The notes under the pieces: model-generated
Told to the model about the DNA's origin: nothing
Databases searched by the model: none
What the model saw: only the letters and a program-made list of their open reading frames with translations
Position numbers and translations under genes: made by a program
Assembly: GCF_000739085.1 (NCBI RefSeq)
Contig: NZ_CP009110.1
Location: forward strand, 6,324,001 to 6,388,000
From: Amycolatopsis methanolica 239
GTDB taxonomy: Bacteria; Actinomycetota; Actinomycetes; Mycobacteriales; Pseudonocardiaceae
Length of the DNA: 64,000 nucleotides
Reading direction: 5' to 3'
Part shown: one piece after another, positions 1 through 16,008 of the stretch
How the letters are laid out: the number at the start of each line of letters is the position of its first letter
Position numbering within the stretch: position 1 is the first letter of the stretch

Positions 1-785
1 GGTTCGTCGCCGCCGATGTGCACCAGCCGCGCGGTCGGGTGGGCCGCGAGCACCTCCGCCAGCTGCGCTTCGACCAGCTTCAGCGAACCGGGACGCGACG
101 GGCAGAGCTGCTGGTGTCGCTCGTCCTCGGCGAGATCCCAGTAGCGCGGCCGTTGCAGGGCGTACTCTTTGTGGCCAAGGCACTGCACCAGCGGGATCAC
201 CTCGATGCCGTTACGCTGCGCTGCCGCCAGCAGGTCCCGCAGCTGGTCGGGATCCAGCGCGTCCTTGCCAGCCAGGTCGAGCCGTTCGGAGTAGGGGAAC
301 TTGTCCTCGTACTCGACCAGCACGGTGTTCAGCCGCCACCGGCCGAGCCGGTCCATCAGGCCGGCCAGGTAGCCGGGCGCCGGCATCGGCCCCTTCAGAT
401 CCAGGTGCGCCCCGCGCAGCTCAAGGTCGGCGAAATCCACCACGCGACCGCAGTCCAGCCCACGGTCGGCCAGGGTGGCCGCCGCATACCCCAGCGCGCG
501 GTCCCCGTTCGCGGCCAGCTCGATGCGGTCGGCCGTGACCGCGATCGCATGCCCCTCCGGCCGGTCGGGCACGACCAGCCCGCCCGGTCCCGGATCGGCG
601 CCGACGACGATCCGGCCAGGAGAAGCCGTCGTTCTCAACGGAAGTCCGGTGAGCTCGGCGATCCGCCGACCGGCTGGCAGCGCCGTGGCCGCGCAGTACA
701 CCGCCGAACCAGGTGGCGCATGGAACCGGCCGGGCTCCGGGAAGACCGCGCGAGGCGGCGGGGCGGGAAAATCGCCTCTGGTCAA
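1..785 (-). CDS. Family 20 glycoside hydrolase (beta-N-acetylhexosaminidase-like), 3' end outside window
   Basis: Only the first 261 codons are in the window. The frame opens with TTG, overlapping the stop of the preceding gene as TTGA, which fits translational coupling and explains why no ATG start is found. Residues 1-120 resemble the small alpha/beta domain that precedes GH20 barrels; the barrel starts near residue 121 (LELRGAHLDLKG). The sequence ends at HIGGDE (256-261), the GH20 signature whose Asp-Glu pair supports substrate-assisted catalysis by the N-acetyl group. No signal peptide is visible, so it probably acts in the cytoplasm on imported oligosaccharides. It is the last visible gene of the leftward transport operon. 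Substrate specificity cannot be read. GH20 membership is fairly secure from the motif and its spacing. Confidence 0.85.
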   Translation of the reverse strand, partial: MTRGDFPAPPPRAVFPEPGRFHAPPGSAVYCAATALPAGRRIAELTGLPLRTTASPGRIVVGADPGPGGLVVPDRPEGHAIAVTADRIELAANGDRALGYAAATLADRGLDCGRVVDFADLELRGAHLDLKGPMPAPGYLAGLMDRLGRWRLNTVLVEYEDKFPYSERLDLAGKDALDPDQLRDLLAAAQRNGIEVIPLVQCLGHKEYALQRPRYWDLAEDERHQQLCPSRPGSLKLVEAQLAEVLAAHPTARLVHIGGDE

Positions 786-2077
786 CGGATTCCCTCTCGT
801 GACAACGCGGCCAGGTCCAACTCCCCGTGCCGTACCACCAGCTCACCGGCCGCGCCGGTGTTCCCGGCTGGTGCATACTGCCGGCTGTTGCACTCGAAAG
901 CCGTTGTGTCGCAACGTAACCAGGACGCCATCGCGGCGGAGTGCGTCAGCGCGTCACCGACGTTGGTGAGATCGGCGACCGCAACGAACCGGCCGTGGTG
1001 GCGAGCCCAGCAGTACCCCAGCAACGACTGGGTGTGCCCGCGCCCGGTCTTCACCGTCACCCCGGACCACCCGGCGGCGGCCAGCCGGTCGAGCGCCGCC
1101 ACGTCGATGAAGGCCTCGTCGAGCAGGACCGGCAGCTGCGCGGTCAGCTCCGCCATGGCGGCCGGGTCCTGCGCGCCGTCGCGGGGAAAGGGTTGTTCCG
1201 CGTACCGCACCGCGTCGCGGGCCGCCGGGGCCAGTCGCCCGAGCGCCCGCAGCACCGCGGCCAGCTGCCCTGGCTCGCGGTAGGCCTCGTTCGGGTCGAG
1301 CGAGATCCGCACCGGTGCCGGTGCGACGGCACTGGTGGCCAGGTACACGTCGCTGATCCGCGCGGCATCGGCGGCGGGGTCACGCCCGGCCAGCTTGACC
1401 TTGAAGCAATGCACGCCGTCACCGGCCACCCACTCGGTCAGCGGCATGGTGGTGCCGTCGGCCTCGTCCCGGCTCAGCGGGTCGGCCACCCCCACCACGT
1501 GCTGCACCGGCAGGCGCTCCAGTGGCGTGGCACGCAGGTAGTCCCCGGGGAAGCGAGTGCGGAAATCCGGGCCGAGGTAGTCGGCGAGGTCCGCGCCGAG
1601 GTGCTCCCCGGTGTAGCACCGATACGCCGGCGCGCCAAGGGCTTTCGCCCACCCGTCGTGCAATGCCGCGTCAACCGGAGCGGCGCAGACGAGCCCGGCG
1701 AGTTCCGGAATTCCTTGCCGCACAACAATTTCCCGGGACGCTGCGGCCAGAAGAGAGCCCAGCCGCAGCGGATCCGCTTGGTCACCGAGGCCGGGCAGCC
1801 CGGCGGTGAGCTGCTCCACCACCCCGCGGAACACGACGTCGCGGTCCTCACCCCGGGGCGGCTGCCCGCCGTAGGCCCACGGGTGGGACAGCAGCACGGA
1901 GCCCCTGCCGCGCGCGGTGCGCCCGGCGCGGTTGCGCACCACGACCTCGACCACCGCCTCGGTGAGCCCGGTGATCGGCCCGGAGCTGAGTACCAGCGGC
2001 GACGCGAAGGGCACTTCGCGGAAGGAGACTTCCGCGCCGAGCACCCGGATATCGGCGGTCCTCTCGCGCACGGTCAC
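782..2077 (-). CDS. Enolase-superfamily enzyme (mandelate racemase/muconate lactonizing type), probable sugar-acid dehydratase
   Basis: A 431-residue protein, normal length for the superfamily. The GTG start at 2077 overlaps the upstream stop as GTGA. The expected catalytic set is visible: a KxK pair on the second barrel strand (FKVK, K226 and K228), metal ligands D261 (SLDPNE), E294 (YAEQP) and D320/E321 (LLDEAF), and a lysine on the sixth strand (VTVKTGR, K343). The two opposing lysines fit abstraction of a proton alpha to a carboxylate, as in dehydratases and epimerases of acid sugars. Its position between oxidoreductase and hydrolase genes suggests dehydration of an aldonate or uronate to a 2-keto-3-deoxy acid (inference). 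A racemase or cycloisomerase role cannot be excluded. Confidence 0.87.
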   Translation of the reverse strand: MTVRERTADIRVLGAEVSFREVPFASPLVLSSGPITGLTEAVVEVVVRNRAGRTARGRGSVLLSHPWAYGGQPPRGEDRDVVFRGVVEQLTAGLPGLGDQADPLRLGSLLAAASREIVVRQGIPELAGLVCAAPVDAALHDGWAKALGAPAYRCYTGEHLGADLADYLGPDFRTRFPGDYLRATPLERLPVQHVVGVADPLSRDEADGTTMPLTEWVAGDGVHCFKVKLAGRDPAADAARISDVYLATSAVAPAPVRISLDPNEAYREPGQLAAVLRALGRLAPAARDAVRYAEQPFPRDGAQDPAAMAELTAQLPVLLDEAFIDVAALDRLAAAGWSGVTVKTGRGHTQSLLGYCWARHHGRFVAVADLTNVGDALTHSAAMASWLRCDTTAFECNSRQYAPAGNTGAAGELVVRHGELDLAALSREGIR

Positions 2078-2994
2078 CCGCCTCGTTTCGCGGCCCGGTA
2101 GCGGGCACCGAACGCGGCCCCGTCGAAGGACACGGCGTCGAGCGCGGGATCGCGCAGCTCCACCCACCGCCCGCCGTCGCGTCGCGACACCAGCCCGGCC
2201 AACGCGGCCAGCTCCGGCTCGACCAGCTGCCGCAGCGGCAGCGGCGCCGGCGCCTCGCCGGCAAGATAGGGCAGGGTGGCGTTCAGGAACTCCTCGTAGA
2301 GCCCGTCCGGGTCGGCGATGAGGTTCCGCACCGACCGTCCGGAAAGGACGGTCGCGTGGAACGGGTGCCGTGCCTGGGTGGGGCCGACACTCACCATCGC
2401 GGTGCGGCCGTCCTCCCATCGCAGCTCTACTCGCTGCTGACCGTGCCCACCGAGATGCCTTGCCTCGACCACACCGGGACCGAACAGCCCGTGCAGCATC
2501 GAGTAGGCGTGGATCCCGTAGTCGAACTCCTCACCCGAGCAGCCGACCAGGGCGAACTCGGCCGGATCGCCGGCATGCTCCGCCCGCCACCGGCGCACCT
2601 CGGTGCACCAGCGCAGGGCCGAGCCGCCGGTGATCCGCAGCCCGGTCTCGGCGTAGGAGACCAGCGAGTGGATCGCGGAACCGGTGCCGCCGAAGGGTTT
2701 GTCCACCAGCAGGCCGACACCGGCTTCGGCGAACGGACGGGCCCGCTCGATCCGCAGGTCCCAGTCGCAGCCGTGCAGGAACGCCACGTCGACCCGCGCG
2801 GCCATCTCGTCGAGCGACCGGCACACCGTGGCGATGCCGTGCTGCGCGGCGAAGCGCTCGGCATAACCGGGGTCCCACACCGTGCCACCGTCGTACACGG
2901 CGACGACCTCGTGGCCGTGCGCGCGCACGAACGGCAGGAAGCACTCGGGGTGCGAGGTGTCCAGATCGACCAAACCGATGCGGAGGGCGGTCAC
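2074..2994 (-). CDS. Gfo/Idh/MocA-like oxidoreductase
   Basis: A 306-residue protein starting at GTG, which shares one base with the preceding TAG stop. The N-terminal part looks like a Rossmann fold (RIGLVDLDTSH), although the usual GxGxxG loop is altered. DKPF (98-101) matches the E/DKP motif whose lysine contacts cofactor and substrate in this family. The C-terminal half has the mixed sheet expected of the substrate domain, with EFDYGIHAYSM where the family has its catalytic histidine helix. The likely role is NAD(P)-dependent oxidation or reduction of a sugar or cyclitol in the pathway of this island. The altered dinucleotide loop means cofactor preference is uncertain. It is coupled to the permease gene before it and the enolase-type gene after it. 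Confidence 0.8.
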   Translation of the reverse strand: MTALRIGLVDLDTSHPECFLPFVRAHGHEVVAVYDGGTVWDPGYAERFAAQHGIATVCRSLDEMAARVDVAFLHGCDWDLRIERARPFAEAGVGLLVDKPFGGTGSAIHSLVSYAETGLRITGGSALRWCTEVRRWRAEHAGDPAEFALVGCSGEEFDYGIHAYSMLHGLFGPGVVEARHLGGHGQQRVELRWEDGRTAMVSVGPTQARHPFHATVLSGRSVRNLIADPDGLYEEFLNATLPYLAGEAPAPLPLRQLVEPELAALAGLVSRRDGGRWVELRDPALDAVSFDGAAFGARYRAAKRGG

Positions 2995-3812
2995 TAGCCC
3001 TTCACCGATCCTTTCATTCCTTCGATGAAGTGGCGCTGCATCGCGATGAAGAACACGAGCACCGGGGCAAGCGCCATGACGGTGCCGGCCGCCAGGCTCC
3101 GCTGATCGTCACCGAAGATGCCGGCCAGGTAGGCGAGGCCGAGCGCCAGCGGGTAGTTGGAGTCGGTTTTGAGCACCACGAGCGGCCAGATGAAGTTGTT
3201 CCACACGTTGATGAACGCGAAGATCGCCAGGGTGGCCATGGTCGGCGCGACCTGGGGAAGCGCCACCCGCCAGAACGTCTGCCACTGGTTGCATCCGTCC
3301 ACCCTGGCCGCTTCGAACAGCTCACGGGGAAGCTGCTCGAACGCTTGGCGCAGCAGGAAGACACCGAACGCGGACATCAGTCCGGGCAGCACCACCCCGG
3401 CGAAGGTGTCCACCATGCCGAGCTGCGAGACGATCAGGAACCGCGGCACGAGCATGACCTCGCCGGGCAGGAACATGGTGGACACGATCAGCCCGAACAC
3501 CACCTGCCGGCCCCGGAAACGCATGCGCGCCAGCGGGTAGGCGGCCAGCGCGGAGATCACCAGGTAGGCCGGCACGGTGAGCAGCTCCAGCAGCACCGAG
3601 TTCCACAGGTAGCGGGGAAAGGAGATCTGGGTCCACGCCTCGATGAACCAGTCGAGCACCGGTGGCAGTGGGACCAGTTGCGGCGGGAACGAGAAGATCG
3701 GCTGACTGATCGGCTTGACCGCGGTGGAGAGCAGGATCAGGAAGGGACCGACGAACACCACCGAGATCGCCGACATCAGCAGGTAGAACAGGATCTTCGT
3801 GTTGCGGCTCAT
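2994..3812 (-). CDS. ABC sugar transporter permease, MalG type (CUT1)
   Basis: A 272-residue integral membrane protein with about six hydrophobic spans. The cytoplasmic EAA loop, which docks on the ATPase, is clear (EAARVDGCNQWQTFWR, near residue 175). The C-terminus ends in the short basic tail typical of MalG-type permeases. The ATG start overlaps the stop of the first permease gene as ATGA. Together with that permease and the binding lipoprotein encoded divergently it forms an importer for an oligosaccharide or modified sugar. No ATPase gene is present in the operon; actinobacterial CUT1 systems often share one ATPase of the MsiK type encoded elsewhere. Confidence 0.93.
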   Translation of the reverse strand: MSRNTKILFYLLMSAISVVFVGPFLILLSTAVKPISQPIFSFPPQLVPLPPVLDWFIEAWTQISFPRYLWNSVLLELLTVPAYLVISALAAYPLARMRFRGRQVVFGLIVSTMFLPGEVMLVPRFLIVSQLGMVDTFAGVVLPGLMSAFGVFLLRQAFEQLPRELFEAARVDGCNQWQTFWRVALPQVAPTMATLAIFAFINVWNNFIWPLVVLKTDSNYPLALGLAYLAGIFGDDQRSLAAGTVMALAPVLVFFIAMQRHFIEGMKGSVKG

Positions 3813-4756
3813 GGCACCGTCACCTTGCCCCGGGTGATCCGGTAGCTGACCAGCGAGAAGACGATCAGGATGGCCCACAGCACCAGGCCGATGGCGTTGG
3901 CGTAGCCGACGTCGAACTCGCGGAACGCCTTGTCGTAGATGTAGTAGCCCAGCGTCATGGTGTGGTCCTGCGGCCCGCCCTGGGTCATCACGAACACCGA
4001 GGTGAACACCTGGACCGAATCCATGGTGGCGAGCACCACCACCACGGCGAGGTAGGGCCGCAGCAGCGGGATGGTGATGTGGGACAGCCGCTGCCATGAG
4101 CTGGCGCCGTCGACCCTGGCGGCCTCGTACAACGAGGTCGGAATGGACTGCAGCCCCGCCAGGTAGATCATCATGTAGTAGCCGGCGGATTTCCAGACCT
4201 CGACCAGAACCAGGGCTGGCAGGGCCCACCCGGTGTCCAGCAGGAACTGCACCGGCTTGTCGAACAGCCCCACCGAGGTGAGCGCCCAGTTCAGCACCCC
4301 GCGCTGGTGGAACACGTAGTTCCAGGCGATGGCGACCACCACCATCGAGGTGACCACCGGCAGGTAGTACAGCAGCCGGAACACCTTGATCGCCCGCAGC
4401 GGCAGGTTCACCAGCAGCGCGAGCAACAGCGGCAGCCCCACCAGCAGCGGCACCATGCCGACCATGAACAGCCCGGAGTTCTTCAGCGCGGTGAAGAACC
4501 TCGGATCGCCGAGCAGCCGCTTGAAGTTGTCGAGGCCGACCCAGGTCGGCGGGCTGACCACGTGGTAGTCGAAGAACGCCAGCTGTACCGCGGTGACCGC
4601 CGGCCAGATGAAGAACACCGCCAGCAGCACCAGCGCGGGCAGGAGGAAGACGTACGGCGTATGCCACCGCCCATGCAGGCGTGCCTTGCGGCGGGGGCCG
4701 GCGGTCTGGATCCGGCCGGCGGTGGCGTGGTTCGTGGTCGTGGCACTTGTGGCCAT
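3809..4756 (-). CDS. ABC sugar transporter permease, MalF type (CUT1)
   Basis: A 315-residue membrane protein. The ATG at 4756 is preferred over an in-frame ATG 87 bases upstream because a GAAGGGAAG ribosome site sits just before it and the hydrophilic N-terminus MATSATTTNH is usual for the family. A basic segment (residues 15-25) precedes the first span, and about six spans follow. The EAA loop is visible (EAARVDGASSWQRLSHITIP). It is the first gene of the leftward operon and forms the membrane channel with the adjacent MalG-type permease. A TTGACA/TAGTTT promoter lies about 140 bases upstream. Confidence 0.92.
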   Translation of the reverse strand: MATSATTTNHATAGRIQTAGPRRKARLHGRWHTPYVFLLPALVLLAVFFIWPAVTAVQLAFFDYHVVSPPTWVGLDNFKRLLGDPRFFTALKNSGLFMVGMVPLLVGLPLLLALLVNLPLRAIKVFRLLYYLPVVTSMVVVAIAWNYVFHQRGVLNWALTSVGLFDKPVQFLLDTGWALPALVLVEVWKSAGYYMMIYLAGLQSIPTSLYEAARVDGASSWQRLSHITIPLLRPYLAVVVVLATMDSVQVFTSVFVMTQGGPQDHTMTLGYYIYDKAFREFDVGYANAIGLVLWAILIVFSLVSYRITRGKVTVP

Positions 4757-4825
4757 GCACCACTTCCCTTCGTCAGGCGGGCGGCACCCGGTCGACTCGG
4801 GGGCCTGCTCGCTGGGGTTTGCCCC

Positions 4826-4853
4826 TTGACAGCGGAGCGCCAAGCAATAGATT
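4826..4853 (+). promoter_or_regulatory. Rightward sigma-A-type promoter for the binding-protein operon
   Basis: TTGACA at 4826-4831 and TAGATT at 4848-4853 are separated by 16 bp. The -35 matches the vegetative consensus exactly and the -10 fits TAnnnT. Transcription would start near 4860, giving a leader of about 120 nt before the GTG at 4981. It points toward the leftward promoter on the other strand. Confidence 0.6.
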
Positions 4854-4897
4854 GTGTCCGGAACATCAATTACGGTCCGCCGAAAAGTGATACCGGG

Positions 4898-4926
4898 AAA
4901 CTAGCCCCAGCTCCACGGGGTGTCAA
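4898..4926 (-). promoter_or_regulatory. Leftward sigma-A-type promoter for the permease operon
   Basis: Read on the minus strand, TTGACA (4926-4921) is followed after exactly 17 bp by TAGTTT (4903-4898). The predicted start is near 4891, so the transcript runs through the rightward promoter before reaching the permease gene at 4756. The 44 bp between the two -10 boxes (4854-4897) is the most likely operator location, but no clear palindrome is visible there. Confidence 0.6.
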
Positions 4927-4980
4927 GAAAACGGCCACTCCCTCGATCCCCTACCCCGTCAAGCCGACAGGAGGTTCGTT

Positions 4981-6294
4981 GTGAAACTCCGCTTTCCCCT
5001 GTCCCACGCCAAGGTTGCCGCCCGCGCGGTCGCCGTCGCCGCCGTTCTCGGCCTGGCAAGCGCCTGCGTCGCCGGCACCGCCGGCCCGACGCAGACCGCC
5101 GAAGACGACAGCGGTCCGGTCAAGCTCGAATTCTGGACAATCAACCTGAAAAAGGGCTACAACGACTACATCCAGAGCCTGATCGACGCGTACCAGAAGA
5201 GCCACTCCAATGTGACGGTGACCTGGGTCGACGTCCCCGGCAACGACGTTGGCACCAAGTTACTGTCCGCGGTGGCCAGCCAGAACACCCCGGACGTGGT
5301 CAACCTGGCCAGCACCGACCTCGATCAGTTCGTCCCGTCGCTGACCGACCTCGGCCAGTACGTCCCCGCCGACGTCCAGCAGAAGTACCTGCCGAGCCTG
5401 CTCGAACCGCTCCGGCGGGACGGCAAGCTCATCGCGATCCCCTGGTACAACAGCGGGGCACCGATCTCCCTGATCAACACCGACCTGGTGCGCCAGGCCG
5501 GCCTCGACCCGGCCAACCCGCCGAAGACCTTCGACGCGGCGCTCGATTGGGGTGCCAGGCTCCACGCCGCGGTGCCGAGCACCTACGGGATGAACGGCAT
5601 TCCCGACGAGAATCTGGTCCGGCTGGAAGGCATCCAGATCCTCACCCCCGACCGCAAGCACGCCGCGTTCAACACCCCGGAAGCGGTGGCGCTGCTCGAA
5701 CGGTGGCGGCACGGGGTGGAGACCGGGGCAATCTCGCCGGGCTCCACGGTCAAGGACGACCGGCAGTACCCGCAGACGCTGGCCAACCAGCAGGTGGCCT
5801 TCGGCGTCAACAGCATCCCCGGCAGCCTGACCAGCCTGCAGAAGAACGCACCGGACGTGTACGCGAAGATCGACGTCGCACAGGGCGCCACCGGGAAGAC
5901 CGGCAAGTACCTGCTGCCGGACCAGCAGACCTTCGTGACCCCGAAGGCGTCCAAGCATCCCAAGGCCGCGGCGGACTTCATCGCGTTCGTCACCGACGCG
6001 GCGAACCAGACGGCGTTCTGCAAGCTCACCCCGATCTACCCGTCCAACGCCGACTCGCTGAAGGACCCCTTCTTCACCCAGCCCGGTGCCGGCACGCCGA
6101 TCGAGAAGGCGCGCTCCGCGATCGCCGCGGAACTGCCCAAGCTGGAGCTGGGCACCATGGGCACCGGGAAGGACCGGCAGCTCTCCGACCGGTTCCGTGA
6201 ACACATCCGCGCCTTCATGACCGGCGACAAGAGCGCGCAGCAGGCGCTGGCCGACGCCGAGAAGGAATGGAACGAACTGCTCGCCCAGAAGTAA
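4981..6294 (+). CDS. Sugar-binding lipoprotein of ABC transporter (family 1 solute-binding protein)
   Basis: A 437-residue extracellular solute-binding protein. The GTG start is set by the GGAGG nine bases upstream. Residues 1-28 form a secretion signal with the LASAC lipobox, so Cys29 would be lipid-anchored outside the membrane; Ala at -3 is less common than Leu but tolerated. The mature part has the family 1 pattern, with LEFWTINL at the start and FVTPKASKHPKAAADFIAFV before the C-terminal helices. It delivers substrate to the two permeases encoded divergently. A strong hairpin follows the gene, consistent with higher abundance of this subunit than of the downstream enzymes. Confidence 0.93.
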   Translation: MKLRFPLSHAKVAARAVAVAAVLGLASACVAGTAGPTQTAEDDSGPVKLEFWTINLKKGYNDYIQSLIDAYQKSHSNVTVTWVDVPGNDVGTKLLSAVASQNTPDVVNLASTDLDQFVPSLTDLGQYVPADVQQKYLPSLLEPLRRDGKLIAIPWYNSGAPISLINTDLVRQAGLDPANPPKTFDAALDWGARLHAAVPSTYGMNGIPDENLVRLEGIQILTPDRKHAAFNTPEAVALLERWRHGVETGAISPGSTVKDDRQYPQTLANQQVAFGVNSIPGSLTSLQKNAPDVYAKIDVAQGATGKTGKYLLPDQQTFVTPKASKHPKAAADFIAFVTDAANQTAFCKLTPIYPSNADSLKDPFFTQPGAGTPIEKARSAIAAELPKLELGTMGTGKDRQLSDRFREHIRAFMTGDKSAQQALADAEKEWNELLAQK

Positions 6295-6320
6295 CCGAAG
6301 CGGTACCCAACCCGCCATCC

Positions 6321-6350
6321 GGCCGGGGGACCCCGCACGGTCCCCCGGCC
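6321..6350 (+). terminator. Intercistronic hairpin after the binding-protein gene
   Basis: A perfect 12-bp stem (GGCCGGGGGACC) with a six-base loop lies between the binding-protein gene and the next gene of the operon. There is no T-run. Such hairpins in transport operons commonly act as partial terminators or 3' stabilisers that keep the binding protein in excess; here this is inference. Confidence 0.6.
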
Positions 6351-6385
6351 TCCCCACCGCCATCGACCGCGGGAGCACTCACCTC

Positions 6386-7420
6386 ATGCACGAAGTCCGG
6401 GTAGGCATCGTCGGCGCCGGCATCATGGGCCGCGCTCATGCGGCCGCGCTCAGCGACCACCCCGCCGCCGTTGTCACCGCGATATCCAGCCGTACCAAGG
6501 AAAGCGCGCAGGCGCTTGCCAAGACCTACCACGCGCGGTCGCACCCCGACCACGAATCACTCGTCGCCGACCCCGAGGTGGACCTCGTCGTCGTGGCCAC
6601 TCCGGACCACCTGCACGCCGACGTCGTGGTCGCCGCGGCCGAAGCCGGGAAGCACGTGCTCGTGGAGAAGCCGTTCACCACGTCCACTGTGGACGCCGAC
6701 AGGGCACTGGCCGCGGTGCGCCGCGCCGGGGTGCTCGGCATGACCCTGTTCAACCACCGGTGGGTGCCGGCCTACGCGCAGGCACAGCAACGGATCGCGG
6801 CCGGCGACCTCGGGAAGCCGGTACTGGCCTACGCCCGCAAGAACGACACGATCCACGTGCCGACCAAGATGATCCCGTGGGCCGCGGAAACCACTCCGGC
6901 GTGGTTCCTGTCCAGCCATGACATCGACCTGGTGAGCTGGCTCTTCGACGACGTCGCGGTGGAGGTCTACGCCAACGCGGTGCACGGCAAGCTGCGCGAA
7001 CTCGGCGTGGACACCCCCGACGCCGTGCAGGCACAGGTCCGCTACCGCGGCGGCGCGGTGGCCACCTTCGAGGCGTGCTGGATCTACCCGGACACCTTCC
7101 CCACCATGACGGACTCCTTCGTGGAGGTCATCGGCGAGCAGGCGGTGGTGCACCTCGACCGCAAGTGCGAGCAGATCGAGATCGCCACCGAGCGCGCATT
7201 CGAGTACCCGCGCAACCTGTTGCTGCGTACCGTGCACGGCCGCCCGGCCGGCGCCGTGCGCGATGCGTTGTGGCACATGGTCGACTGCGTCCGCGCCGGC
7301 ACCGCGCCGCTGGTCACCATGGAGAGCTCGCGGCACGTCAGCGCGGTGCTGGAAGCGGCGCACGCCTCGATCGCCTCCGGGCAGCCGGAACGCGTGCCGG
7401 CCCCGGTGGAGGCGAGCTGA
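6386..7420 (+). CDS. Gfo/Idh/MocA family oxidoreductase
   Basis: A 344-residue NAD(P)-dependent dehydrogenase with a complete family signature: dinucleotide loop GIVGAGIMG (7-15), EKPF motif (94-97, Lys95 conserved) and the substrate-domain helix SSHDIDLV with His178 as the likely catalytic base. Length and order match sugar and inositol dehydrogenases. The stop codon directly abuts the ATG of the lyase gene. Unlike the paralogue in the leftward operon it keeps the classical cofactor loop, so the two probably act on different intermediates. The substrate is likely an oxidisable hydroxyl on an imported sugar or on a lyase product (inference). Confidence 0.9.
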   Translation: MHEVRVGIVGAGIMGRAHAAALSDHPAAVVTAISSRTKESAQALAKTYHARSHPDHESLVADPEVDLVVVATPDHLHADVVVAAAEAGKHVLVEKPFTTSTVDADRALAAVRRAGVLGMTLFNHRWVPAYAQAQQRIAAGDLGKPVLAYARKNDTIHVPTKMIPWAAETTPAWFLSSHDIDLVSWLFDDVAVEVYANAVHGKLRELGVDTPDAVQAQVRYRGGAVATFEACWIYPDTFPTMTDSFVEVIGEQAVVHLDRKCEQIEIATERAFEYPRNLLLRTVHGRPAGAVRDALWHMVDCVRAGTAPLVTMESSRHVSAVLEAAHASIASGQPERVPAPVEAS

Positions 7421-9634: not shown

Positions 9635-9637
9635 CGC

Positions 9638-10858
9638 ATGTCCACCCCGGAAACCACGGCCGCGCCCGTGCGCGTGGCGCCATGGCCGCGCTGGCCGGAG
9701 CACGGCGAGCCGGAACGCCGCCGACTTGCCGAAGTGCTCGACGGCGGGATGTGGAACGGCATCGACGCCCCCGCGGTGACCGCGTTCGAGCGCGAGTTCG
9801 CCGAACGGCTGGCAACCAGGCACGTGATCACCTGCGCCAACGGCACGGTCAGCCTGGAGATCGCGCTGGCGGCGCTGGGCATCGGCGCCGGAGACGAGGT
9901 GATCGTGCCGCCGTACACCTTCCTGGCCACGGCGTCGGCGGTGCTCGGGCTGAACGCGCTGCCGGTGTTCGCCGACATCACCCCGGACACCTACTGCATC
10001 GACCCGGCCGCGGTGGAGGCGGCGATCGGCCCGCGCACCCGCGCGGTGATCGCCGTGCACCTGGCCGGCCACCCCGCGGACCTCGACGCGCTCGGCGAGA
10101 TCTGCACCCGGCACGGCATCGCGCTCATCGAGGACGCCGCGCACGCGCACGGCAGTAGCTGGCGTGACCGGCCGGTCGGCGGGTTCGGCGCGTTCGGCTC
10201 GTGGTCGTTCCAGGGTTCGAAGAACCTCACCAGCGGCGAGGGTGGCGCGCTGTCGGCGAACGACGACGAGCTCGCCGGCATCGCCCGCGAGCTGCGCAAC
10301 TGCGGTCGCGTCGAGGGCGGCGCGTGGTACGACCACCAGCGGTTCGGCGGGAACTGGCGGATCACCGCGTTCCAGGCCGCGCTGCTGTCCGCCGGTCTCG
10401 AACGGCTCCCGGCGCAGTTCGCCCGCCGGGAGGCCTGCGCCGCAAGACTGGACGCCGAACTGTCCGACGTGGACGGAATCAGGCCGCTCGCCCGTGATCC
10501 CCGTGCCACCGGGCACGCCCATCACCTCTACCTGTTCCGGTACTCGCCGTCGGCCTTCGGCGGCCGGTCCGTCGAGGAGTTCTGCGCCGCGCTGCGCCGG
10601 CACGGAATCCCGGCGAGCCGGGGCTACCCGCTGCCGCTCTACCGGCAGCCGGTGTTCGCGCGGCAACGGTTCGACCTGCTGGCCACCGGATGGGACCCCG
10701 GCCACCCACCGACCCGCTACGACCGGATCGACCTGCCGGTGTGCGAGCGGGCCTGCGCGGAGTCGGTCTGGTTGCCGCATCACGTGTTGCTGGCCGAGCC
10801 GGACGAGATGGCCGACGTGGCCACCGCGATACGAACGGTGGCGACCACGTCATCGTGA
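9638..10858 (+). CDS. DegT/DnrJ/EryC1/StrS family PLP-dependent aminotransferase
   Basis: A 406-residue aminotransferase with the fold and motifs of sugar and cyclitol aminotransferases: Asp166 (IEDAAHAHG) for the pyridine nitrogen and Lys195 in SWSFQGSKNLTSGEGG for the internal aldimine. Usual partners are keto-sugars or scyllo-inosose-type cyclitols with glutamine or glutamate as donor. The ATG follows the lyase stop by three bases, and the next gene overlaps its stop as GTGA. In an otherwise catabolic operon it might run toward deamination of an amino sugar, or build an inducer or intermediate; the sequence does not decide. Confidence 0.9.
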   Translation: MSTPETTAAPVRVAPWPRWPEHGEPERRRLAEVLDGGMWNGIDAPAVTAFEREFAERLATRHVITCANGTVSLEIALAALGIGAGDEVIVPPYTFLATASAVLGLNALPVFADITPDTYCIDPAAVEAAIGPRTRAVIAVHLAGHPADLDALGEICTRHGIALIEDAAHAHGSSWRDRPVGGFGAFGSWSFQGSKNLTSGEGGALSANDDELAGIARELRNCGRVEGGAWYDHQRFGGNWRITAFQAALLSAGLERLPAQFARREACAARLDAELSDVDGIRPLARDPRATGHAHHLYLFRYSPSAFGGRSVEEFCAALRRHGIPASRGYPLPLYRQPVFARQRFDLLATGWDPGHPPTRYDRIDLPVCERACAESVWLPHHVLLAEPDEMADVATAIRTVATTSS

Positions 10859-11625
10859 CCGAGTTCGATTCGTCGTTCGATCCCTCCTGCCTTGTCGACG
10901 CCAACGCGATGCTCGGCCCGCTGCCCACCGAGGACGTCGGGCAGGGCACCGCGGCCGAGACGGTCAAGGACATGGACCGGGTGGGCATCGGCTCCGCCGT
11001 GGTCTGCCACTCACACGCCTGGCGGCACGACCCACCCAGCGGAAACCGGCTGCTGGTGCGCGAGATCGCCGACGAGCCACGCCTGCTGCCGTGCTGGGTC
11101 GTGCTCCCGGACACCTGCGGCGAGCTCGGCGGGATCGACCGGTTCCTCGCCGACGCCGAGCGCGCCGGGGTGGCCGCCTTCCGCGCCTATCCCCACGACC
11201 ACGGGTATGCGCTGGCCGGGCCGGATGTCGCGCCGCTGATGGCCGCCATGGCCGAGCGGCGCCGCCCGCTGCTGGTGAACGCCGACCAGGTGCCGCTCGA
11301 CGAGGTCGAGGCGCTGGCCGGAACCCACCCCGAGCTGCCCATCGTGCTGTGCGCCACCGGTTACCGGCTGCTGCGCCGGCTGGCCGGGGTGCTGGCCCGC
11401 ACCGGCAACGTGCACGTCGACCTTTCCTACCTCGGCAGCCATCTCGGGTTGGAGTGGCTGGTCGAGCGGTTCGGCCCGAGCCGCCTGCTCTTCGGCACCG
11501 GCGCCCCGGCGAGGGACCGGGCCGACGCGATCACCCGGCTGCTGTGGTCGGAGCTCGACGACACCGCGACCCGCCGGATCGGCGGCACCAACCTGCTCAC
11601 GCTGCTCGGGAAGGAGCCGGCATGA
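10855..11625 (+). CDS. Amidohydrolase-like TIM-barrel protein with degenerate metal site
   Basis: A 256-residue protein; the GTG start overlaps the aminotransferase stop as GTGA, which shortens a longer open frame. The layout follows the amidohydrolase-2 family, but the strand-1 HxH metal motif reads DANAM (Asn17 and Met19 replace both histidines) and the strand-8 Asp region reads GTGAPARD instead of GSDxP. A metal-dependent hydrolase reaction is therefore doubtful. It is coupled by a 4-bp overlap to a second amidohydrolase that keeps the ligands, so it may be a non-catalytic partner or have a changed mechanism (inference). Confidence 0.75.
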   Translation: MTEFDSSFDPSCLVDANAMLGPLPTEDVGQGTAAETVKDMDRVGIGSAVVCHSHAWRHDPPSGNRLLVREIADEPRLLPCWVVLPDTCGELGGIDRFLADAERAGVAAFRAYPHDHGYALAGPDVAPLMAAMAERRRPLLVNADQVPLDEVEALAGTHPELPIVLCATGYRLLRRLAGVLARTGNVHVDLSYLGSHLGLEWLVERFGPSRLLFGTGAPARDRADAITRLLWSELDDTATRRIGGTNLLTLLGKEPA

Positions 11626-12425
11626 CCACCGACCCGCTGGTCTCGGCAGTGCACGCCAGGACCCCGCTGTCCGGAGTGGACGTGATCGACGCGCACGCCC
11701 ACCTCGGCCCGTACAGCCTCTTCTTCACCCCGGACCCGAGCGCCGACGCGATGGTGCGGGTGATGGACCGCTGCGGCGTTCGCCGCACGATCCTGTCCGC
11801 CACCATGGCCATCGAGCTGGACGCCAGGCGGGGCAACGAGCAAACCGCCGAGGCGACCGAACGCCACCCGGGCCGGCTCTGCGGCTACGTGGTGGTCAAC
11901 CCGCACCAGGACCCGGCGGCCGAGTTGTCGCGCTGGGCCACGCATCCGGGCATGGTCGGGCTCAAGCTGCACCCGAGCCTGCACCACTACCCGGTGACCG
12001 GCCCCCGCTACGCCGACGCCTGGGCCTACGCCGAGGAAACCGGGCGCCCGGTGCTCGTGCACACCTGGACGGGGTCCGATGTGGACGATCCGGAGCAGGT
12101 GGCCGAGGTGGCGCGGCGATACCCGAAGGCCAAGGTGCTGCTGGGACACAGCGGTGCCCGCCCGGACGGCTTCGCGCGCGCGATCGAGCTCGCCGCCACG
12201 CACCCGAACCTCTACCTGGAGATCTGCGGCTCGCATTTCACCGGGCGGTGGCTGACCAGGATGGTCGCCGCGCTCGGCGCGCACCGCGTGATCTATGGAT
12301 CCGACTTCCCGTTCATCGACCTGCGTTACTCGATCGGTCGGGTGGTGTTCGCCGAACTGGACCTGGCCGACCGGGCCACCGTGCTCGGTGGCGCCATTCG
12401 CACGCTGTTGGAGGAGAAATCATGA
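11622..12425 (+). CDS. Amidohydrolase-2 family metal-dependent hydrolase
   Basis: A 267-residue TIM-barrel hydrolase starting at an ATG that overlaps the previous stop as ATGA. Metal and catalytic residues are intact: IDAHAHLG (His25, His27), LVHTWTG (His147), LLGHSG (His176) and IYGSDFP (Asp228). The family includes sugar lactonases such as fuconolactonase, and decarboxylases such as 2-amino-3-carboxymuconate-6-semialdehyde decarboxylase. Beside two sugar dehydrogenases and an FAH-family hydrolase, opening of an aldonolactone is the most economical role (inference). It pairs with the degenerate paralogue just upstream. Confidence 0.86.
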   Translation: MTTDPLVSAVHARTPLSGVDVIDAHAHLGPYSLFFTPDPSADAMVRVMDRCGVRRTILSATMAIELDARRGNEQTAEATERHPGRLCGYVVVNPHQDPAAELSRWATHPGMVGLKLHPSLHHYPVTGPRYADAWAYAEETGRPVLVHTWTGSDVDDPEQVAEVARRYPKAKVLLGHSGARPDGFARAIELAATHPNLYLEICGSHFTGRWLTRMVAALGAHRVIYGSDFPFIDLRYSIGRVVFAELDLADRATVLGGAIRTLLEEKS

Positions 12426-13315
12426 GACTGGCCAGTATCCGTACCGAGGCGGGGCCGGCGCTCGGCGTCGGCTCCCGTGCCGGCGACACGGTCGTGCGGG
12501 TGGACGTCATCGACCCGGACGCGCCGACGGACATCCTCGAACTGCTCGCGCTACCGCCGGACCGGCTGCGCCGGCTCAGCGATCGGGCGGACGAGCTCGC
12601 CGGGCGCGGCGGGCCAGGGGTGCTCTCGGTGGACGAGGCCCCGCTCAGCCCGCCGGTGCCACGACCGTCCAAAGTGGTCTGCCTTGCGCTGAACTACCGT
12701 GCGCACGCCGAGGAGGGCGGCTTCACCCCGCCGGAACGTCCGGTGCTGTTCCTCAAGGGCCCCCACACGCTGACCGGGCACGGCGCGGACATCGTGGTGC
12801 CCCCGCTCAGCCGCAGGATCGACCACGAGGGCGAGCTGGCCGTGGTGATCGGCCGCCGCTGCAAAGACTTCGACGGCGAGGACTGGCAGGGTGCCGTCGC
12901 CGGCTACACGATGATGAACGACCTGACCGCGCGCGACCTTCAGCTGGCCGACATCGCCGCACAGCACCCGTGGGACCTCAGCAAGAACTTCGACGGGTTC
13001 GGCCCGGTCGGCCCGTGGCTGGTCACCCCGGACGAGGTGCCCGATCCGCAGGCGCTGGACCTGGAAGTGCGGGTGGACGGCCTGCTCCGGCAGCGCGGCA
13101 GCACCGCGCAGATGATCTTCGGCGTGCGCGAGCTGCTGGTCAGGCTGTCCGCGGTGATGACCCTGGAAGCGGGCGACCTGATCGCCACCGGCACCCCGGA
13201 CGGCATCGGCGAGGTACCGGACGGCTCGGTGGTCGAAGTCCGCATCGGTGATCTCGGCGTGCTGCGCAACCGCGTGACGCACACCCCCATCCTGGAAAGG
13301 AAGCAGAACCAGTGA
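12422..13315 (+). CDS. Fumarylacetoacetate hydrolase (FAH) family protein
   Basis: A 297-residue protein; the ATG at 12422 overlaps the previous stop. The N-terminal 75 residues form the small FAH-associated domain, followed by the FAH core: LNYRAHAEEGG (90-100), metal ligands in DHEGELAVVIG (Glu136, Glu138) and MMNDLTARD (Asp167), then KNFDGFGPVGPWL and the TGTPDGIG loop near the end. Family members cleave C-C bonds of acylpyruvates or hydrate 2-keto-4-enoates; one known role is hydrolysis of 2,4-diketo-3-deoxy sugar acids in L-fucose and L-rhamnose breakdown. That role suits this operon but is inferred. Confidence 0.9.
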   Translation: MRLASIRTEAGPALGVGSRAGDTVVRVDVIDPDAPTDILELLALPPDRLRRLSDRADELAGRGGPGVLSVDEAPLSPPVPRPSKVVCLALNYRAHAEEGGFTPPERPVLFLKGPHTLTGHGADIVVPPLSRRIDHEGELAVVIGRRCKDFDGEDWQGAVAGYTMMNDLTARDLQLADIAAQHPWDLSKNFDGFGPVGPWLVTPDEVPDPQALDLEVRVDGLLRQRGSTAQMIFGVRELLVRLSAVMTLEAGDLIATGTPDGIGEVPDGSVVEVRIGDLGVLRNRVTHTPILERKQNQ

Positions 13316-14580
13316 ACCAGCTCGCGATGCACGGCGGCACTCCCGTGCGCAGCACCCCGTTCCTCTCCGCCATGGACCCGGCGGGCCGCACCCTCGGCGA
13401 GGCAGAGGCGGCCGCGCTCGCGGAGGTGATCGCCTCCGGGCGGCTCGGCGCGACCGGCGGCACCCAGGTGCCCGCGTTCGAGCGGGAGTTCGCCGACTAC
13501 TACGCGGTGCCGCACGCGGTGGCCTGCACCTCCGGCACCGCCGCACTGCACCTGGCGGTCGGCGCGCTCGACCCGGCGCCGGGCGACGAGATCATCACCA
13601 CCCCGATCACCGACTTCGGCACGGTGATCCCGATCCTGGCGCACAACGCCGTCCCGGTCTTCGCCGACGTCGACCCGCGCACCGGCCTGCTCGACCCGGC
13701 CGCGGTGGCGGCGCTGGTGACCGAGCGCACCAAGGCGATCATCGCGGTGCACCTCGCCGGTGCGCCGGCGCCGATCGCGGAGCTGGCCGAGATCGCGCGC
13801 AAGCACGACCTGATGCTCATCGAGGACTGCGCGCAGGCCTACCTCACCGAGTTGCCGGACGGGCGGCTCGCCGGAACCGCCGGCCACGTCGGCTGCTTCA
13901 GCCTCCAGCAGTACAAGCACATCACCTGCGGGGACGGCGGCATGGCGATCACCTCCGACCAGGAACTGGCGACCAGGATGCGGCTGTTCGCGGACAAGGG
14001 CTGGCCACGGCACACCGGCGAGCGCACCCACCTCTCGCTCGGCATGAACTACCGGATGACCGAGCTGCAGGCGGCGGTCGCCAGGGTGCAGCTCGGCAAG
14101 CTCGCCGGCGTGGTGGCCAGCAGGCGGGAGAACGCGAGGCGGCTCGCGGACGCGCTGACCGGGCTGCCCGGCGTGCACCCGCCGACCGGGATCGACCGGC
14201 ACGCGGTGTGGCTGTTCCCGGTGGTGCTCGACCCGGCCATCGCCGGCGGTACGAACGCGGAATGGGCGGGCGCGCTGGAAGCGGAAGGGATCCCGGTCTC
14301 GGCCGGGTACCTGAGCCGGCCGGTGTACGGCTACCCGGTGCTGGCCGAGCGGAACCTCTACGGCGGCTCGGGTTTCCCGCTCACCAGCCCGCCGGCGAGC
14401 CGCGACCGGCACTACCCCGATGGCCTGTGCCCGAACGCCGAGGAGCTGATCCGGCGCACCCTGCTGGTGGTGCACTGGAACGAGGCGTACACCGAATCGG
14501 ACGTGGACGACATCGCAGCGGCCTTCCGCAAGGTGCATGCGGCGCTCACGGCGACCGTGGGGACACCGTCTGGTGTGTAA
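13312..14580 (+). CDS. DegT/DnrJ/EryC1/StrS family PLP-dependent aminotransferase (second copy)
   Basis: A 422-residue sugar aminotransferase; the GTG start overlaps the FAH-gene stop as GTGA. PLP residues are Asp172 (IEDCAQAY) and Lys202 in FSLQQYKHITCGDGG. It is clearly diverged from the other aminotransferase in this operon: the N-terminus (LAMHGGTPVRS) and the QQYKH lysine context are typical of the AHBA-synthase/inosose-aminotransferase branch. It is the last gene of the coupled series, followed by a 102-bp gap. Two different DegT enzymes in one catabolic-looking operon suggest that nitrogen is moved between two sugar or cyclitol intermediates (inference). Confidence 0.9.
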   Translation: MNQLAMHGGTPVRSTPFLSAMDPAGRTLGEAEAAALAEVIASGRLGATGGTQVPAFEREFADYYAVPHAVACTSGTAALHLAVGALDPAPGDEIITTPITDFGTVIPILAHNAVPVFADVDPRTGLLDPAAVAALVTERTKAIIAVHLAGAPAPIAELAEIARKHDLMLIEDCAQAYLTELPDGRLAGTAGHVGCFSLQQYKHITCGDGGMAITSDQELATRMRLFADKGWPRHTGERTHLSLGMNYRMTELQAAVARVQLGKLAGVVASRRENARRLADALTGLPGVHPPTGIDRHAVWLFPVVLDPAIAGGTNAEWAGALEAEGIPVSAGYLSRPVYGYPVLAERNLYGGSGFPLTSPPASRDRHYPDGLCPNAEELIRRTLLVVHWNEAYTESDVDDIAAAFRKVHAALTATVGTPSGV

Positions 14581-14682
14581 GATCGCGTGCCGGGGCACGC
14601 GCAGGCCAGGCCGGGCGGATCGCGCACGTCCCGCCCGTAAGCCGGCGATGCCCGGACGGCCAGCCGAGTCGGGGAGTGCAGG

Positions 14683-16008
14683 GTGACACAGTCACGCGAG
14701 GCACCGATCCCGCACCAACCGGTGATCGGGGTCGCCGGGCCGTCCGATCTGGTGGCACAGATCATCGAGCTCGGCGCCGGCCTGGCCGGCGATCAGGCCG
14801 ACTGGCGGCTGGTCGGCATCGCCTACCACGACGAGGGCGAGGTGGCCAAGGAGCTGGCCAGGGTGCAGTCCGGCCTGGACGCCTGCCTGTTCGCCGGCCC
14901 GCTCCCGTACGACCTGGCGCATGCGGCCGGCGGGCTCGCGGTGCCGGCCACCTATATCCCGCTGTCCGGCTCGGCACTGTACGGCGCGCTGCTGCGGGCG
15001 GTACTCGAGCAACACGCCGACATCCGGCGGGTGAGCATCGACTCGGTGCCCCGTAACGAGATCCACGAGGCCTACGCGGACCTGCACATCCCGGTTACCG
15101 ACGTGCGCGTGGTGGAGTACCGCGACCCGGAGTCGCCGGCCGAGTTCTTCGAGTTCCACCGTGACGCCTACCGGCGTGGAGCCACCGAGCTCGCGCTGAC
15201 CAGCGTGCGCTCGGTGGCCCAGCGGCTGGCCGATGCGGAGGTGCCGGTGTTGCTGATGCGGCCGACCACGGCGACCATCCGTTCCGCGCTGCGCACGACC
15301 GCGTTGCTGGGCATCGGCAGCAGGCTGGAGGACTCGCAGATCGCGATCGGCATCGTCGAACTGCCGTCCGGGCCGACCGGGGAGTACGGCCGCGACCAGC
15401 TTCGCCTTGCGGTGCACCACATCCTGCTCGATGAGGCGCGGCGGATGGACGCCACCGTGCTGTCCCGCGACGAACGCAGCTACTACATCGTGGCCACCTT
15501 CGGCTCGCTGACCGCGGCCACCGACGACCTGAGCGCGCCACCGTTCGTGGAACGGATCCGCCAGGAGGTCGGCCTGGACGTCGAGCTCGGTATCGGCCTC
15601 GGCCTGACCGCGAGGGCCGCCGAGGCCAACGCCAGAACCGCGCTGGCAAGGGCGAGCACCGCGGCCGGGGAAAGCAGTTATGTGGTCGGCGCGGACGGCA
15701 CGGTGCTGACCGCGCCCATACGGCAGAGCGCCCGCCAGCTCAGCCACGACGACGCGCACAGCAAGGCACGCACCACGCTGGACCGGCTCGCCAGGGCCTT
15801 GGGCTCCGGCGCCGAAGTGCCGACCGATCGCCTTGTCGTCGACGCCAGCGCGGTCGCCGAGCTGCTGGACATCACCCCGCGTGCGGCCCGCCGGGTACTG
15901 CACACCCTGACCGAGACGGGGCTCGCCTGGCAGATGCCCCCGCTGCGGTCGGCCGGCCCCGGCAGGCCGAGGCAGCTCTACCGGCTGCTGCCGGAGAAGC
16001 TTTCCTGA
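14683..16008 (+). CDS. Probable transcriptional regulator: sensor region, GGDEF-like domain, C-terminal winged helix
   Basis: A 441-residue protein starting at GTG 14683 after GGGGAGTGCAGG. Residues 15-190 look like a periplasmic-binding or PrpR-type sensor fold (VIGVAGPSDLVAQIIELG, DIRRVSIDSVPRNEIHEAY). Residues 210-345 resemble a GGDEF/GTP cyclohydrolase III-like palm domain (ELGIGLGLTARAAEANARTAL) without the GGDEF catalytic loop. The C-terminal 70 residues form a helix-turn-helix (VAELLDITPRAARRVLHTL). It lies next to the sugar island on the same strand but in its own unit, so it is the best candidate for its regulator. The family name is uncertain; the architecture is read from motifs. 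Confidence 0.7.
   Translation: MTQSREAPIPHQPVIGVAGPSDLVAQIIELGAGLAGDQADWRLVGIAYHDEGEVAKELARVQSGLDACLFAGPLPYDLAHAAGGLAVPATYIPLSGSALYGALLRAVLEQHADIRRVSIDSVPRNEIHEAYADLHIPVTDVRVVEYRDPESPAEFFEFHRDAYRRGATELALTSVRSVAQRLADAEVPVLLMRPTTATIRSALRTTALLGIGSRLEDSQIAIGIVELPSGPTGEYGRDQLRLAVHHILLDEARRMDATVLSRDERSYYIVATFGSLTAATDDLSAPPFVERIRQEVGLDVELGIGLGLTARAAEANARTALARASTAAGESSYVVGADGTVLTAPIRQSARQLSHDDAHSKARTTLDRLARALGSGAEVPTDRLVVDASAVAELLDITPRAARRVLHTLTETGLAWQMPPLRSAGPGRPRQLYRLLPEKLS

Follow-up and report, generated by a model that had tools for sequence, protein, structure and literature searches.

A putative amino-sugar glycan island in Amycolatopsis methanolica with two DegT aminotransferases and tandem active and degenerate amidohydrolases

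Introduction

What might a bacterium do with a locus that combines a sugar importer and glycan-active enzymes with two DegT-family aminotransferases and an amidohydrolase that has lost its metal ligands? The question is raised by two divergent operons at the left end of the stretch of Amycolatopsis methanolica 239 DNA analysed here (the window: 64,000 nucleotides, NZ_CP009110.1 positions 6,324,001 to 6,388,000), which is one part of a genome of 7.24 Mb in a single contig. An earlier note on this DNA had read the genes at 1..16008 as a complete, new, non-phosphorylative sugar-acid pathway akin to oxidative L-fucose and L-rhamnose breakdown, for an amino-sugar- or cyclitol-containing substrate. 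Our comparative analysis leads to an amended reading, to which we give a probability of about 0.58: the operons are part of a catabolic island that imports and degrades an amino-sugar (or aminocyclitol) glycan by an undescribed route. We found no description of this gene set in the open-licence PubMed Central (PMC) literature searched.

Results

A ~29-kb island with two divergent operons

The island spans window coordinates of about -12.7 kb to 16.0 kb, and the window holds its right-hand ~16 kb. Two operons diverge from a 224-bp region (Table 1). The rightward one encodes, in order, SBP, GFO2, HEP, DegT1, AHdeg_B1, AH_B2, FAH and DegT2, and then a putative regulator (REG); HEP lies directly 3' of GFO2, and 4-bp overlaps couple DegT1/AHdeg_B1, AHdeg_B1/AH_B2, AH_B2/FAH and FAH/DegT2. 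The leftward one runs through PermA, PermB, GFO1, ENO and GH20 and continues for 7.3 kb past the left edge of the window, through the rest of GH20, ROKb, SEC544 (a secreted-looking 544-aa protein), AHdeg_A1, AH_A2, EPI and DHDPS, to end at ~-7253. An operon for SIS, ROK, PfkB and class II aldolase proteins follows at -11.7 to -8.1 kb, together with a gene that by eye is DeoR-like. The divergent arrangement and the overlaps described in the earlier note were confirmed in the sequence, and Pfam and NCBIfam matches, in a scan that covered 24 of the 25 island proteins (DeoR being the one left out), bore out the families it had named: GH20, enolase superfamily, two permeases, SBP, HepII/III, DegT1, two amidohydrolase genes, FAH and DegT2, most active-site residues being kept. 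The bounds it had set were too narrow, since the left edge of the window cuts through GH20, and its claim that the island supplied every step was incomplete because it drew on a partial view of the feature: the window does not reach DHDPS, the SDR-family EPI or a second amidohydrolase tandem. Gene starts came from a codon-usage or a longest-ORF (open reading frame) caller, and tblastn recovered some genes that these had missed, such as AH_A2 of G140 and, in L106, the DegT2 relative (G and L numbers are our handles for genomes and loci).

Table 1. Features of the island, and A-type partner genes found elsewhere without an A-type active subunit. Plain coordinates are those of the window.
Feature	Coordinates	Strand	Basis or remark
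GH20 hexosaminidase, 5' part	1..785	-	Gene extends left to ~-1119; GGDE motif in full protein; start codon uncertain
ENO, enolase superfamily (MR_MLE_C)	782..2077	-	Pfam; KxK + D/E/D ligand positions align
GFO1, atypical Gfo/Idh-like	2074..2994	-	TSH motif replaces Gly-rich loop; DKP kept
PermB, ABC sugar permease B	2994..3812	-	Pfam
PermA, ABC sugar permease A	3809..4756	-	Pfam
Divergent promoter region	4757..4980	.	Promoter scan and alignment with G198
SBP, extracellular solute-binding protein	4981..6294	+	Pfam
Inverted repeat between SBP and GFO2	6321..6350	.	13-bp arms (scan tolerance ≤1 mismatch)
GFO2, canonical Gfo/Idh/MocA dehydrogenase	6386..7420	+	Pfam/NCBIfam
HEP, heparinase II/III-family protein	7421..9634	+	Pfam; conserved residues in four homologues
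DegT1, PLP aminotransferase	9638..10858	+	Pfam; PLP lysine kept
AHdeg_B1, amidohydrolase-family partner without metal ligands	10855..11625	+	Pfam, alignment
AH_B2, intact Amidohydro_2 enzyme	11622..12425	+	H25, H27, K115, H147, H176, D228
FAH-family hydrolase	12422..13315	+	Pfam/NCBIfam
DegT2, PLP aminotransferase	13312..14580	+	Pfam; PLP lysine read by eye
REG, putative regulator	14683..16008	+	Weak winged-helix-like region at the C-terminus, under cut-off; nothing in Pfam above cut-off
EPI, SDR family	L006 11805-12821 (about -6195 to -5179)		
A-type partner without A-type active subunit	G001:C26 61469-62302		
A-type partner without A-type active subunit	G018:C3 41513-42208		

The two operons probably form one system

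Much of the gene set recurs in other phyla. For 14 of the 25 island genes, a 37-kb locus of Alkalihalobacillus sp. YIM B00296 (Bacillota; L210/L211) holds a match at E ≤ 1e-5; both ROK proteins point to one gene, which leaves 13 distinct genes there. The 48 other genes of the window gave 0 matches, in a comparison that was not blind. The genes matched were SIS, ROKa, PfkB, GatY, DHDPS, EPI, SEC544, ROKb, PermA, PermB, SBP, DegT1, DegT2 and REG. GH20 and GFO1 were similar, but more weakly than this threshold; the locus also has an enolase-superfamily gene that BLAST did not link to ENO and a gene of the GH20C type, and a protein next to SEC544 resembles GH88 weakly, scoring under the cut-off. 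A verrucomicrobial metagenome-assembled genome (Opitutia; L106) encodes EPI and DHDPS along with a protein of HepII/III type, two DegTs (one of them DegT2-type) and an amidohydrolase pair; the gene for the active amidohydrolase comes first, and the partner, without a Pfam match, was recognised by eye. Both DegT/amidohydrolase units occupy one locus in Actinophytocola, G066 and Virgisporangium. The neighbourhood search that the earlier note had suggested was thus positive in the congener G198, in other actinomycetes, in Bacillota and in Opitutia.

The near-orthologous island of G198 comprises 12 genes that are 74-89% identical to their counterparts here (AH_A2, AHdeg_A1, SEC544, GH20, ENO, GFO1, PermB, PermA, SBP, HEP, DegT2 and REG); missing from it are GFO2, DegT1, the B-type amidohydrolases, FAH, ROKb, EPI and DHDPS. 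Its B-type genes are found at a separate locus comprising a second HEP, a second SBP/permease set, GFO2, the AH_B pair and FAH, and the window therefore joins two modules. The G198 island is flanked by its own SIS/PfkB/GatY operon, which is just 47-57% identical to that of A. methanolica (ROK 52%, DeoR 39%), and because of this low identity the two operons were probably recruited separately.

The divergent promoter region is conserved in G198 as three aligned blocks. A plus-strand promoter (TTGACA-16-TAGATT) lies at 4826-4853, one such site being found as against 0.1 expected in shuffled sequences, and a minus-strand counterpart (TTGACA-17-TAGTTT) was read by eye in the alignment; the conserved block AATTACGGTCCGCCGAAA lies between the two promoter blocks. 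This arrangement suggests joint control of both operons. Given the co-conservation across phyla and the conservation of this region in the congener, both operons probably belong to one system. That two independent operons should adjoin by chance, as the separate B-type locus of G198 might suggest, is very improbable: both DegT types stand side by side with left-arm genes in the Bacillota locus, the two DegT/amidohydrolase units share single loci as listed above, and the contrast of 14 of 25 with 0 of 48 disfavours chance neighbours.

Each operon pairs an intact amidohydrolase with a conserved, degenerate partner

In each operon the gene for an Amidohydro_2 enzyme comes after that of a relative whose metal site is destroyed. 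The metal site of this family is made up of HxH, K, H, H and D. In an alignment of 52 rows, nine of which were set aside before counting, all six residues (H, H, K, H, H, D) were present in 20 of 20 active tandem members, and K, H, H and D were missing from 23 of 23 partners, with Lys replaced by Arg in 22 of these. Among the 18 partners scorable at all six positions, three keep the first His and none keeps any other ligand; five more are gapped at the first one or two. The rows set aside came from L106 (one), L193 (one), L194 (three), L195 (two), G192 and G017 (one each), and consist of the active protein of L106 (--KHHD, with a miscalled start), four intact and two HRARRD relatives in L193-L195, and single YTKNHE and HREVHE proteins; the fused G076 protein (too long) and the G018 gene (not called) stood outside the alignment.

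Gene order is equally regular. The partner lies upstream of the active gene in all 21 tandems tabulated, overlapping it by 4 nt in 19 and by 13 nt in two. These rows were entered by coordinate, with Actinophytocola (G031, the same as L074) counted once per type; outside them stand G001 and G018, where the partner lacks an active neighbour, the fused G076, L106, where the active gene leads, and the B-type partner of L102 (cut by the locus end). In G076, partner and active enzyme are fused in a single ORF of 643 aa. Moreover, the ratio of nonsynonymous to synonymous substitution rates (dN/dS) between A. methanolica and G198, a single species pair, is low for the A-type partner (0.20), its active neighbour (0.14) and DegT2 (0.23). 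A decaying pseudogene is disfavoured by conservation, tandem order and dN/dS. The amidohydrolase that the earlier note had called degenerate does not look like a decaying gene: judged by its sequence, it is a reproducible, conserved partner.

The active enzymes match only the broad family PF04909 and no NCBIfam model, and among solved structures they come closest to an uncharacterised amidohydrolase and to gamma-resorcylate decarboxylase; the 'lactonase-type' label of the earlier note is not shown by their sequence. Phylum-wide, a profile of the B-type partner matched 36 of 396 genomes at 1e-10, and below 1e-20 just A. methanolica itself and G324 (E=1e-36); the weaker matches may be ordinary amidohydrolases. 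Low-GC contigs of G324, G346 and G431 gave no called genes.

Three amidohydrolase genes in a row occur in L194 (16279-18652) and L195 (15712-18085), near SEC544, enolase, Gfo/Idh, creatininase-family and DHDPS genes. The L194 triplet, with two intact members and a third reading HRARRD, is a second case of active-plus-degenerate amidohydrolases.

Two DegT aminotransferases with relatives in biosynthesis

DegT1 and DegT2 match the family at E=4e-103 and 6e-89 (Pfam), with the lysine that binds pyridoxal phosphate (PLP) aligned in DegT1 and identified by eye in DegT2. The best solved relatives of DegT1 are 2-deoxy-scyllo-inosose aminotransferases (2c7t, 5w71 and 5w70; residues 15-401, E=4e-72), followed by 3-amino-5-hydroxybenzoic acid (AHBA) synthase; those of DegT2 are a DegT named by family alone and perosamine synthases. 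A tree that took five DegTs of the same genome as its outgroup, all of them falling outside both clades, placed DegT1 with an Alkalihalobacillus DegT and actinomycete DegTs adjoining B-type amidohydrolases (support 0.993), and DegT2 with the other Alkalihalobacillus DegT, two more from Bacillota and one from Opitutia (support 0.966). Because of its nearest solved relatives, and because nucleoside-diphosphate (NDP)-sugar models score below cut-off, DegT1 would seem to favour a free-ring keto or amino compound, in either direction of transamination. These relatives and the gene context support the amino-sugar or cyclitol class of substrate that the earlier note had proposed.

Gfo/Idh and DegT enzymes act together in the kanosamine and 2-deoxystreptamine pathways, and the island could likewise be a biosynthetic cluster making an amino sugar or aminocyclitol, with the importer and hydrolases serving a self-made glycan or its recycling. 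The biosynthetic relatives of DegT1 and the top NCBIfam models of both DegTs, which are NDP-sugar transaminases scoring below cut-off, speak for this. Set against it, none of the 24 island proteins scanned matched nucleotidyltransferase, glycosyltransferase, flippase or inosose synthase families, and where the set recurs it is accompanied by genes for importers, GH20, NagB-like proteins and ketose-bisphosphate aldolases; we regard a biosynthetic role as unlikely.

Class-III-type aminotransferase genes lie near FAH at G030:C5 70084-71385 (Pfam-confirmed) and G198:C9 176958-178259. In three Bacillota loci a 567-574-aa protein precedes the DegT2-type genes (L211 3251-4957, L212 12095-13798 and L213 14252-15976); the L211 copy has no Pfam match above cut-off.

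EPI and DHDPS form a widespread pair

A scan for DHDPS in one genome per species (84,980 species) gave at least 524 relatives, and the best 80 of these at least 524 loci were fetched; amidohydrolase and DegT relatives away from DHDPS were sampled only among the G-numbered genomes. EPI was called in 69 of these best 80 loci, nearly always adjoining DHDPS. By cluster, their neighbours include REG-like (25 loci), DegT (18), NRAMP-like (15), M20 (14) and FAH (3) proteins; Pfam confirmed representatives of serine dehydratase, NagB-like, GH20 and NRAMP-like (one) proteins, and an Amidohydro_1 protein was labelled NagA-like by us. FAH relatives at 45-46% identity accompany EPI-DHDPS in L053, L054 and L096. 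DHDPS has its invariant lysine at the expected place. The SDR motif is YxxxK; EPI has YxxxC and no SDR lysine (five sequences aligned), and because of this replacement it may not be a classical dehydrogenase.

Among 200 genomes of the family, taken as one draw, AHdeg_A1 (E ≤ 2e-80) is carried by 10, DHDPS by 13 and both by seven (P=8e-8; by genus 0.0095), with the two genes in a shared neighbourhood in six of the seven, G198 being the exception.

An NRAMP-like gene lies near EPI-DHDPS in L055, L060, L086, L105, L124 and ten other loci, some of which also have an M20 peptidase-like gene. EPI-DHDPS may serve a small acid at NRAMP-like loci, some of which are without evident glycan genes.

The remaining enzymes compared with known pathways

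HepII/III lyases have conserved Asn, Tyr and His residues as their signature. HEP matches the N- and C-terminal HepII/III domains (Pfam), and N198/W199, Y252/H253, H411/H413 and H453 are conserved in four divergent homologues. These residues and the presence of GH20 could be taken for glycosaminoglycan-type use, in which HEP yields an unsaturated uronate and GH20 N-acetylhexosamine (HexNAc), the uronate being processed unusually by DegT, FAH and enolase; the GH20C-type gene and the weak GH88 match in the Bacillota relative point the same way. Yet no KduI/KduD-like or GH88 match was found among the scanned island proteins, and the DegTs and two amidohydrolase pairs are left unexplained, so that this version is improbable.

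The fucose/rhamnose assignment of the earlier note, in which the remaining genes would be extras, has in its favour the joint presence of FAH, enolase, amidohydrolase and Gfo/Idh families and the likeness of FAH to L-2,4-diketo-3-deoxyrhamnonate hydrolase (E=8e-42). That enzyme, however, stands further down among the nearest solved relatives than HpaG-type proteins and a FAH-family protein (8sky), and FAH scores below the curated cut-offs of all specific NCBIfam models matched, with 171 bits as against 500 for 2,4-didehydro-3-deoxy-L-rhamnonate hydrolase (NF053535). Sugar-acid dehydratases of the mandelate racemase type have a His-Asp dyad; ENO, a divergent branch weakly matching unrelated subgroups (MenC, muconate cycloisomerase and DgcA models), has an ambiguous beta-6 lysine position in the alignment and is not shown by its sequence to be a 'dehydratase'. 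With this low FAH score and these weak ENO matches, and with sugar-kinase and aldolase genes linked to the island, this pathway is distinctly unlikely. 'Non-phosphorylative' is at best half right, because such kinase and ketose-bisphosphate aldolase genes adjoin the island here, in G198 and in the Bacillota relative.

As for the two Gfo/Idh dehydrogenases of the earlier note, GFO2 is canonical and GFO1 is not: members of this family bind NAD through a Gly-rich Rossmann loop, and GFO1 has GLVDLDTSH where GFO2 has GIVGAGIMGRAH. It had no Pfam match at 1e-3, a relaxed threshold giving E=0.014. The sugar-kinase operon passes just general cut-offs (1-PFK and the ketose-bisphosphate-aldolase subfamily) and scores below those of the GalNAc/tagatose equivalogs, with 32 bits for SIS against AgaS (cut-off 529), 158 against LacC (409.55) and 213 against tag_bisphos_ald (443.55); SIS is nearer to GlmS/GlmD than to AgaS.

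Other features

The inverted repeat between SBP and GFO2 possibly uncouples the level of SBP from that of the enzymes. At L006 4203-4586 (window about -13797 to -13414) a short ORF, by eye an enolase-superfamily C-terminal piece, is possibly a remnant. A tRNA scan for an integration site found none.

Discussion

A proposed degradation route

The island appears catabolic because of its importer, the absence of an obvious signal sequence (by eye) from GH20 and HEP, and the adjoining SIS/ROK/PfkB/aldolase operon, which together argue for an amino sugar, the relatives of DegT1 adding a cyclitol-like link. From these genes we infer a substrate, an order of steps, a direction of transamination, heteromers and products as follows. 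SEC544 would act outside the cell on a polymer, and oligosaccharides would be imported by the SBP/permease pair. In the cytoplasm, GH20 would remove HexNAc units and pass them to the products of the neighbouring ROK/SIS/PfkB/ketose-bisphosphate-aldolase genes, and HEP could eliminate at a uronic-acid or amino-uronic-acid residue. The Gfo/Idh enzymes would then oxidise the remaining amino sugar (or aminocyclitol), and DegT1 and DegT2 strip its nitrogen as deaminating transaminases; two heteromeric amidohydrolases, each of an active metal subunit and a metal-free partner, would open or hydrolyse ring intermediates, and FAH or DHDPS would cleave the carbon chain to pyruvate and a small aldehyde or acid.

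Several points weigh against this reading. DegT enzymes are known mostly from biosynthesis; the top NCBIfam models for both island DegTs (PseC, about 204 and 203 bits, under a cut-off of 423.5) are of that kind. No DegT was found near FAH in G030 and G198:C9, where there is an aminotransferase of another class. In L210/L211, HEP, GFO2, FAH, both amidohydrolase tandems and ENO are without a BLAST counterpart, and that locus was picked via the DHDPS scan and for its likeness, so that its DHDPS match holds by construction. In G198, DHDPS lies away from the island beside a 402-aa protein that is NRAMP-like by eye, and the island can therefore exist without adjoining DHDPS. The partner's dN/dS comes from one species pair, and G001 and G018 carry the A-type partner without any A-type active enzyme genome-wide at E ≤ 1e-10. 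Finally, the catalytic residues may have been relocated, which would make the partner an enzyme in its own right instead of a pseudoenzyme, as the many invariant polar positions of the A-type partner would suggest.

A fuller version of the catabolic reading is more tentative, and we consider it rather doubtful: a route common to several phyla in which two DegTs deaminate a di-amino sugar, or two different amino sugars or aminocyclitols, of a glycan, with two active/dead amidohydrolase heteromers and pyruvate released via FAH or DHDPS. Should the main catabolic reading be right, an aminotransferase family met chiefly in biosynthesis would gain a part in catabolism, a job would be hinted at for the widespread EPI-DHDPS pair, and the amidohydrolases would be a clear case in which to study how active and inactive enzymes pair in bacteria. 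The genes that recur make up a short list of enzymes that could identify a glycan eaten by a novel route.

Comparison with known systems

Individual parts of the island resemble described systems. Its amidohydrolase pairing, proposed from sequence for Amidohydro_2 proteins, recalls the trypanosomal AdoMetDC-prozyme, for which a heterodimer of active and dead paralogues is reported. 2-Deoxy-scyllo-inosose aminotransferases, which belong to aminoglycoside biosynthesis, have the position of the PLP lysine in common with DegT1, whereas DegT1 sits in an import/catabolic locus. The catalytic domain of the island FAH is like that of L-2,4-diketo-3-deoxyrhamnonate hydrolase and HpaG-type FAH (8gsr and 1gtt), while the island enzyme falls below equivalog cut-offs. 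Catabolism of GalNAc and tagatose is of the AgaS, PfkB and GatY type, and SIS, ROK, PfkB and class II aldolase genes adjoin the island in A. methanolica, G198 and Alkalihalobacillus; but the SIS protein of the operon is closer to GlmS/GlmD, no deacetylase gene was recognised in that operon, and the GalNAc/tagatose pathway offers no role for the DegT/amidohydrolase part.

Among the 24 island proteins scanned none matched a D-aminoacylase-type deacetylase or a 2-keto-3-deoxygluconate (KDG) kinase, the one PfkB protein passing the 1-PFK cut-off only. Both activities belong to the ong pathway, by which Pseudoalteromonas uses oxidised chitin (GlcNAc1A); it catabolises an amino-sugar acid without prior phosphorylation and takes off nitrogen by a PLP enzyme (PMC9537276). 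What brings the two systems close is the combination of GH20, a PLP enzyme and deacylation. For OngC the annotation is D-amino-acid deaminase instead of DegT, and OngB is a D-aminoacylase-type deacetylase, with KDG kinase following; Gfo/Idh, FAH, DHDPS, HepII/III and the amidohydrolase tandem are unmentioned for ong in the sections drawn on here (PMC9537276). Of the systems compared, ong is the nearest described logic to that of the island, differing from it in most enzymes (PMC9537276).

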